From an uncultured Pseudodesulfovibrio sp. (GTDB lineage: Bacteria > Desulfobacterota > Desulfovibrionia > Desulfovibrionales > Desulfovibrionaceae): 64,000 bases of DNA. The position numbers and the translations under genes were made by a program. Positions within the stretch are counted from its first letter, which is position 1, and each line of letters starts with the position of its first letter. The DNA is taken from contig NZ_OY782498.1 in assembly GCF_963677845.1 (NCBI RefSeq), positions 2,611,518-2,675,517 on the forward strand, given 5' to 3'. This document shows positions 1,629 to 3,513 of this stretch, one piece after another. The notes beneath the pieces are model-generated. The model was not told the DNA's origin and did not search any database. It worked only from the letters and a program-made list of their open reading frames with translations.

Positions 1629-1726
1629 TAAATCTGCTCTTGATAGCAACTTGACTCATGCACCCTGACTCGCATATTTTTATAAATAGAGGAATTTCAT
1701 CCAGCACAGACAATACGAGGTGATCC

Positions 1727-3415
1727 ATGGCTCCGCTGTTCAAAGACGATACCAAGGACGACTGGTTCCTGCCTGCCGATGTTCGCAAGCAATTGACCGA
1801 AACATTCAAGACACTCCAAGGCACTGTATCACTGGAAGTTTTTACCCAATCCGGGGTAAACGACGAATTCTCTGACTACACAGCCAAATTCTGCTGGGAT
1901 CTGGCTCGATTAACCGACAAAATATTGGTCACTGGTTATGAACTGGATTCCGACCGCGCCAAATCACTTGGAATAACCGCTTCTCCCACCCTGTGCGTCA
2001 ATCCCGACGATTACCATATTCGCTTTCTAGGTGCGCCCATCGGCGAGGAAGGAAAAGCCTTCATCACTGCTATAATGCTCACCTCGCTGGGCAAAAGCGG
2101 CCTGTCTGACATGTCCACCCCGCTTCTTGAGCAACTCAAGGACGAACGCCTGATTCAAGTCTTTGTCGCGCCAACCTGACCGTATTGTCCCGGACAGGTC
2201 ATGTCCGCTATCAAGTGTGCAATAGCCAAGCCCGGCCAGATCAAGGCCGAGTGCATCGAAATGAATGAAAACCCGGAAATCACTGAGCACTATGGCGTCG
2301 GTTCTGTCCCACATACTTTCTTCAACGAAGGGGCCTATGATGTCATGGGGCTCTTGCCGGAAGAACGATTCGTGGTTGAAATGGTTTACCTCAAATCCGC
2401 AGAGGACATGCTCGCCGAAGGCAGCCTTCCCGGCATGGAAGAAGGCAAAACACCATCTGGATACGGAACCATTGAACCCGGCGAAGTCGACCTCGTCATC
2501 GTTGGCGCAGGTCCCGCTGGATTGACCGCAGGCATTTACGCAGTCCGGGCAGGCCTCAAGTCCGTAGTACTGGAAAAACACATCGTCGGTGGTCAGGTCG
2601 CATTGACACCAGTCGTCGAAAATTACCCCGGCTTTGTTTCTGTTCCCGGCAAACAACTCATGGATATCATGAGTGAACACGCCCGCGAATATGTCCCGGT
2701 ACATGAAGGAGAAAGCGTTGACGCCATCCAAATGGGAGATCTGGAAAAAGGCGAAACCATCATCGTGACAACCAGTCGAGGTGTATACTCCGCCAAAGCT
2801 CTCATTCTGACAACTGGTGCGACATACCGCAAACTTGGTGCTGTGGGTGAAGATACATATTTTGGCCGTGGCATCAATTATTGCGCCTCCTGCGACGGGT
2901 ATCTCTACAAGGGAAAATCCGTAGCCATTATCGGCGGCGGAAATACAGCTCTGACCGATGCCCTTCACCTTAAAAATCTCGGCGTCAACGTCACTATTAT
3001 CCATAGAGGCGACACATTCCGCGCACAAAAGCCTCTCCAGGATTCCGTCAATCATGAGCAGATTCCCATTCTCTGGAACACCGTTGTCGAAGAAATCGAA
3101 GGAGACGGACGACGAGTGAACAATCTCAAGATTCGGAATCTCATGACACGCGCGGTGACCGACATGCCGGTGGACGGTGCATTCGTCGCTATCGGACAGG
3201 AAGCCTCTACCGGGCTAGCACAATCGCTTGGCGTGAAACTCAAAGAAGACGGCTTCGTCAAAGTCGAATCCGACATGCGCACCAACCTGCCGCGTGTTTA
3301 TGCCGCCGGAGACCTTACAGGAGGCCTGCAACAAATCGTCACGGCCATTGGCGAAGGGTCCATCGCAGCCATGTCGGCTTTTGAAGATATAAGTCATCCA
3401 TACTGGAAAAAATGA
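1727..3415 (+). CDS. Selenoprotein: thioredoxin/glutaredoxin-like domain fused to thioredoxin reductase, Sec at codon 151
   Basis: Two open frames, 1727-2179 and 2201-3415, are in the same phase and separated only by TGA at 2177-2179. Read through, the junction is VAPT-U-PYCPGQV, the classic CPYC redox motif of the double-thioredoxin-fold N-terminus of AhpF/PDO-type proteins, with selenocysteine in place of the first cysteine. The product is 562 residues. Residues 1-130 form a first degenerate thioredoxin fold, about 140-225 the second fold with U151/C154, and 255-562 a thioredoxin-reductase module with FAD motif GAGPAGLTAG, redox pair CASC (386-389) and NAD(P)H motif GGGNTA. The likely role is cytosolic NAD(P)H-driven disulfide or peroxide reduction. 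ATG 1727 has a weak upstream GAGG. A point nonsense mutation is unlikely, given the SECIS-like hairpin and the exact position of the stop. Confidence 0.88.
2180..2207 (+). promoter_or_regulatory. Bacterial SECIS element behind the in-frame UGA
   Basis: After the UGA come 11 nt, then a 17-nt perfect hairpin: stem CGGACA (2191-2196), loop GGTCA, stem TGTCCG (2202-2207). Spacer and hairpin lengths match the minimal E. coli fdhF SECIS, and the apical AGGTC is the same as in fdhF, where the loop G and U contact SelB. This supports co-translational selenocysteine insertion at 2177. Confidence 0.85.
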
Positions 3416-3513
3416 TCAATACCGCCAACAACAGGCGGAATTGACAGGGAGGCATGGGCTGGAATAGGGTTTTCACCGTTAAAAATGAAAACTTCAGGAC
3501 CATTGTTGCCGCC

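Follow-up and report, generated by a model that had tools for sequence, protein, structure and literature searches.

A gene interrupted by an in-frame UGA in an uncultured Pseudodesulfovibrio is predicted to encode a selenocysteine-containing PDO-like module fused to a flavin reductase

Here, we describe a gene of an uncultured Pseudodesulfovibrio sp. that appears to be split in two and that, as judged from sequence comparison, almost certainly encodes one selenoprotein, with selenocysteine (Sec) decoded at UGA codon 151 of a single fused protein. The gene lies in the window, the whole stretch of 64,000 nt that was analysed, and its host genome consists of one contig of 3.70 Mb. The reading frame 1727–3415, which runs from ATG 1727 to the stop codon 3413–3415, is broken by TGA 2177–2179 alone, in agreement with the initial annotation, which had placed the ORFs on both sides of this TGA in one frame. 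Mechanical ORF calling yields two pieces, 1727–2179 (150 aa) and 2201–3415 (404 aa), exactly the 150-residue orphan and the reductase starting at the internal ATG 2201 that a plain annotation had been expected to list. When the UGA is read through, the protein contains FVAPT-U-PYCPGQV, so that the stop takes the place of the first residue of a CPYC-type motif, also as claimed beforehand. A Shine-Dalgarno-like sequence precedes ATG 1727. By eye, no comparable well-spaced site was seen upstream of ATG 2201, which is in frame and whose A sits within the loop of a SECIS-like hairpin. A promoter and terminator scan gave two promoter-like sites, compared with 1.7 in shuffled sequences, and no terminator. 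The computational evidence supports decoding as Sec as well as the domains and the conservation of the redox residues, and what ORF callers cut in two becomes one predicted selenoenzyme. The features are as follows:

1717–1723, plus strand: Shine-Dalgarno-like GAGGTGA upstream of ATG 1727, found by eye
1727–3415, plus strand: whole predicted recoded gene, 562 residues, Sec at 151, terminal TGA stop
1760–2101, plus strand: first thioredoxin-fold unit, degenerate, without CxxC (borders approximate)
2141–2392, plus strand: second thioredoxin-fold unit with U151-P-Y-C154; Pfam Thioredoxin_3, residues 143–220 (borders approximate)
2177–2179, plus strand: UGA codon 151, predicted to be read as Sec; no codon other than TGA, TGC or TGT in 74 loci, sel genes present
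2191–2207, plus strand: hairpin resembling a SECIS, CGGACA-GGUCA-UGUCCG, with its loop beginning 17 nt downstream of the UGA
2483–3394, plus strand: FAD/NAD(P)H thioredoxin-reductase-like domain, residues 253–556
2882–2893, plus strand: CASC redox motif in the reductase domain; C386 and C389 are invariant across 36 aligned proteins

What kind of protein does this frame encode? Besides Thioredoxin_3, Pfam recognises Pyr_redox_2 (residues 255–544). The nearest sequence relatives of the N-terminal half are archaeal PDO proteins (2hls, 1a8l), whose CPYC aligns with U151PYC, U151 falling on the first Cys of the 1a8l motif; at the place of the CxxC that is missing from the first unit, 1a8l has HCQYC. 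When the UGA is read as Cys, positions 151 and 154 are, like the two Cys of the CASC motif, invariant in the 36 proteins (numbering of the window protein). An AlphaFold2 model built from 36 sequences, also with the Cys reading, reached a pLDDT of 84.4 and a pTM of 0.52, residues 1–10 and the linker 237–248 being the parts of low confidence. Its three best Foldseek matches are full-length AhpF proteins, aligned over about 550 columns at 26–27% identity, with TM-scores of 0.47–0.52 and an rmsd of 15–25. These low TM-scores and the large rmsd indicate that the domains match those of AhpF while their arrangement does not superpose, and the domain arrangement suggested by the model is thus uncertain. 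Taken together, the Pfam domains, the AhpF matches and the likeness to PDO bear out the proposal that an AhpF/PDO-like domain is joined to a reductase. The protein scores under the curated cut-offs of all three families concerned: 277.8 bits against 502.9 for AhpF (TIGR03140), 317 against 343.45 for thioredoxin reductase (TIGR01292) and 160.2 against 185 for PDO_seleno_TRX (TIGR02187). The layout of AhpF is present, with two thioredoxin folds followed by the FAD/NAD(P)H domain and one active CxxC-type site per half, Sec replacing the first Cys. A UGA relative from g76 (L172) passes the thioredoxin reductase cut-off with 347.8 bits and reaches 183 bits with the PDO profile.

AhpF and the TrxR/PDO pair are established families with electron relay roles, and by analogy with them electrons would likely flow from NAD(P)H through FAD and the CASC motif (C386/C389) to a U151–C154 selenenylsulfide and from there to a client. 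We infer that U151, as the first residue of its motif, would act as the attacking selenolate and that Sec would bring a gain in rate; protein disulfides or peroxiredoxins are the likely clients. Because the reductase and the selenium module belong to one chain, one purified protein would suffice to assay this electron path. The genome also carries other genes of thioredoxin reductase type, one of which (L099) passes the family cut-off with 354 bits and another (L101) scores 207 bits, as well as eight matches to the AhpC-TSA family, among which the following two contain an in-frame TGA:

G000:C1:184215–184937, minus strand: PrxU-type peroxiredoxin (L093/L127), UGA at the peroxidatic site, DFTFV-U-ATE
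G000:C1:1464160–1464534, plus strand: AhpC-TSA family protein with UPFC (L094), whose hairpin has its loop 25 nt downstream of the UGA

The first of these scores 403 bits with NF040737 (cut-off 270, UGA read as Cys). Its Cys-containing AhpC paralogue L092 has DFTFVCPTE at the corresponding place, and the ACPAKW stretch of L092, which we take to be the resolving Cys site, reads TPSGWK in L093. Close relatives of L093, of 67–100% identity and with one in-frame TGA each, occur in 17 of the 36 genomes of the genus, its own included; the place of the TGA was read in the window's genome only.

Could the fusion be the dedicated AhpF partner of this selenoperoxiredoxin? The occurrence of a peroxiredoxin with TGA at its peroxidatic position in the same genome speaks for such a couple, and so does the finding of a PrxU gene in six of the eight genomes of the genus that carry the UGA fusion. 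However, the PrxU gene is also found in 11 of the 28 other genomes of the genus, and with a p value of 0.11 for this difference the co-occurrence does not establish a dedicated couple. In addition, the two genes lie far apart in the genome, and NCBI describes NF040737 as thioredoxin-dependent. We therefore regard a dedicated partnership as rather unlikely and keep to the broader reading, in which protein disulfides or peroxiredoxins would be served. The gene neighbourhood named no peroxiredoxin and no shared gene among ten mechanically chosen neighbouring ORFs at six related loci, five of these ORFs being without a Pfam match. In one genome, a gene of the peroxidase family (PF00141; L015 941–3214), presumably of the catalase-peroxidase type given its length, lies two ORFs upstream of a Cys orthologue.

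Regarding decoding, SelB and tRNA-Sec, guided by the SECIS hairpin right after the codon, would read UGA 151 as Sec. The expectation that selA, selB, selC and selD would be found in the genome held for all four: the profile search gave 615 bits for selA, 398 for selB and 342 for selD, all over their cut-offs, and tRNA-Sec (selC) scored 81.8, the gathering score being 47. The selD gene itself holds one in-frame TGA. Within the order, selA is over its cut-off in 276 of 348 genomes, and all 11 genomes with the UGA form of the fusion are among the matches listed; because selA is so widespread, its presence is a prerequisite that discriminates weakly.

In PMC13188914, the bSECIS model comprises a stem of 4–16 bp, a loop of 3–9 nt with a G in its first two positions, a distance of 16–37 nt from the UGA and a minimum free energy of −7.5 kcal/mol or lower. 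Judged by these published values, the window hairpin falls within the model, with 6 bp, the loop GGUCA, a spacing of 17 nt and −7.9 kcal/mol as an isolated hairpin; its z-score under synonymous resampling is −2.8. When simple hairpins of −6.5 kcal/mol or better with a loop start at 16–18 were scanned for, they were present at nine of the 11 loci with UGA and at four of the 63 with Cys (p 3e-7 by Fisher's test, to be read with the reservation that the rows share ancestry and are not independent), against a background of 15 in the 2,587 TGA triplets of the window. The published −7.5 kcal/mol is reached by eight of the 11 UGA loci in this simple scan, G304 and G311 being without a hairpin and G236 reaching only −6.5. 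With bulges allowed, G236 (−8.1) also qualifies, as does G311 with its loop at a distance of 30 nt, and G304 still fails. Mean z-scores under synonymous resampling were −1.95 for the UGA loci and −0.02 for the Cys loci. By contrast, the folding energy of the whole stretch did not separate Sec from Cys loci (mean z −0.19 and −0.37), the corresponding stretch of the window, folded alone, has its energy minimum in a hairpin other than the SECIS-like one, and Rfam returned nothing, either on the whole window at gathering thresholds or on 1700–3500 at E values up to 5. In g76 (three genomes), the hairpins are CCACAGC/GCUGUGG or CCGCAGC/GCUGCGG with the loop AGGUG or AGGUA, one base pair being altered on both sides of the stem between the two forms. 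Similar hairpins also follow the UGA, at 17–25 nt, in three other UGA genes of the genome: SelD (−9.9), the UPFC peroxiredoxin-like gene (−7.9) and the PrxU gene (−7.2), a range of −7.2 to −9.9.

How efficiently the codon is decoded is a separate matter, and the UGA might specify a residue other than Sec, or be used inefficiently, partly as Sec and partly as a stop, with a short N-terminal product that functions at low selenium. UGA also terminates this very gene, so it acts as a stop elsewhere, and an in vivo recoding efficiency of 30–40% is given, for an organism that is not named there, in the abstract of PMC4513850. Nevertheless, the N-terminal fragment would be devoid of both active-site residues, and nothing here hints that it is stable or conserved alone. 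This makes such mixed decoding improbable, and decoding of UGA 151 as Sec in one fused protein is the reading we retain.

The codons around the UGA point in the same direction. In a comparison of the window with six UGA relatives, change falls mostly on third positions in the 100 codons before and the 93 codons after the TGA, and codons 152–158, which lead from the TGA to ATG 2201 and would lie outside a protein begun there, contain 13 synonymous and no non-synonymous differences. It is very improbable that two separate proteins are made, an N-terminal one of 150 residues that terminates at the UGA and a reductase initiated at ATG 2201. Plain ORF calling gives this result and ATG 2201 is in frame. 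However, the reductase would begin within the second thioredoxin fold, at residue 159, beyond both active-site residues. The seven codons before ATG 2201 retain their amino acids, and in the Cys orthologues the match is free of stops and the frame is continuous across the site. The codon at this site could be read in 74 related loci, drawn from the 100 distinct genomes matched in the order, family and genus searches (the G345 row was positioned by its motif). It is TGA in 11, TGC in 49 and TGT in 14 of them, and TAA or TAG in none, which agrees with the prediction that most homologues would carry Cys at 151 (63 of 74). The other 26 matched genomes have no stop within the match, that of G208 leaving the site uncovered. 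A premature stop is the usual mark of a dead gene, and a pseudogene or sequencing error has a practically negligible chance here, given the identical TGA in 11 genomes of four genera and three genomes of another family, the prevalence of third-position change on both sides and a site that holds only TGA or a Cys codon.

The UGA form, read by us as a Sec form, is thus a minority among related genes. A search for TGA followed by the PYCPGQV codons matched in 11 of 348 genomes of the order, from four of its 59 genera, with no match for the reversed control. The frame continues at all 11 loci; ten carry a full-length fusion that is open on either side of the TGA, and the eleventh (G236) ends at a contig end. 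In the protein search, 75 of 149 genomes of the family match at E ≤ 1e-120, four with an in-frame TGA and the remaining 71 without one, G236 and G208 being matched by a C-terminal part that lacks the site. Of the 36 genomes of the genus, 32 contain a match, eight of them with TGA. Among relatives on named contigs, L009 and L010 have TGA and L011–L015 have TGC or TGT, and Pseudodesulfovibrio sp. OB3 carries a relative of 96% identity. Across the phylum, a profile of the N-terminal module matched in 54 of 395 genomes. In another family, three genomes of one genus (G364, G401, G464) have full fusions with an in-frame TGA and U-PYCPQQV. The same search gave an in-frame TGA in the window's own genome, in a stand-alone frame of G630 and in a fragment of G517, counted without its place being fixed. 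The G630 frame (L169, G630:C46) is a PDO-like protein of 209 residues with U-PYC that scores 262.6 bits, over the TIGR02187 cut-off of 185; no fitting hairpin was found after its UGA.

Sec and Cys appear to have replaced each other repeatedly. The best tree contains six state changes, and at least four switches between Cys and Sec are forced by well-supported branches; this quick tree covers 72 of the 74 loci with the site masked, omits the truncated G236 row and the near-copy G287, and places G345 on a long branch. Sister proteins can differ in state, as in G176 (Sec) and G175 (Cys) or G293 (Sec) and G300 (Cys), and such natural close pairs would make the benefit of selenium measurable in one scaffold. 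Two further candidates were rejected. A TAA inside the G295 orthologue is the end of the gene, since Cys occupies the site and the frame terminates behind PYWK. A link of Sec with a change from HRR to HRG or HRS in the NADPH motif fails because G298, G311 and G176 are Sec forms with HRRD; the HRHD obtained for G293 was a first regex match elsewhere in the frame, and its true motif is HRRD.

Two of the Cys loci, G297 (L075) and G300 (L076), keep the exact hairpin of the window. Remnant SECIS-like structures in Cys genes descended from Sec genes are described in PMC1794560. The hairpins of G297 and G300 are likely relics of this kind and, because these Cys forms keep the same hairpin, their sequences suggest a recent loss of Sec to Cys in a genus that still holds selA. 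The hairpins at the Cys loci G065 and G066 are not explained as relics. As a broader view, which we offer as speculative and think unlikely to hold in full, the protein may represent a self-contained selenium redox relay, in which Sec was repeatedly put into a PDO-type module with its own NAD(P)H flavin reductase; it would be a counterpart, independent in origin, of the selenium-containing thioredoxin reductase of mammals and would feed PrxU from Sec to Sec in some genomes.

Among known systems, AhpF (NADH:peroxiredoxin oxidoreductase; 4o5q, 4xvg, 1hyu) shares with this protein the domain order, the active site in the second thioredoxin unit and a CxxC in the flavin domain. The first thioredoxin unit of AhpF has no CxxC, and the same is true here. 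Unlike AhpF, the protein would carry Sec for Cys, its N-terminal half is closer in sequence to archaeal PDO and the identity is limited to 26–27%. The TrxR/PDO couple of thermophiles consists of separate TrxR and PDO proteins (PDO structures 1a8l and 2hls); both protein types are matched here, with CPYC aligned to U151PYC, whereas the present protein is one chain, has lost the first PDO active site and would use Sec. Mammalian thioredoxin reductase is an NADPH flavoenzyme with Sec in its C-terminal tail, and in both cases a flavoenzyme would have Sec in the same chain. However, the mammalian enzyme belongs to another class of flavoproteins, while Sec here would lie in an N-terminal thioredoxin-fold module. 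A close precedent is found in the family of the N-terminal module itself, whose stand-alone UxxC members, such as ABB15282.1, are listed as selenoproteins. They share the double-thioredoxin module with the protein described here and have Sec first in UxxC, as is predicted for it. The family on that list carries the name of the N-terminal domain, whereas here the module is fused to a flavin reductase, and the window protein scores 160 bits against the cut-off of 185. A Sec form fused to the reductase was not mentioned in the selenoprotein literature as far as it was covered. We therefore rate the predicted Sec-containing PDO-like module fused to a flavin reductase as a fused variant of already known stand-alone selenoproteins.
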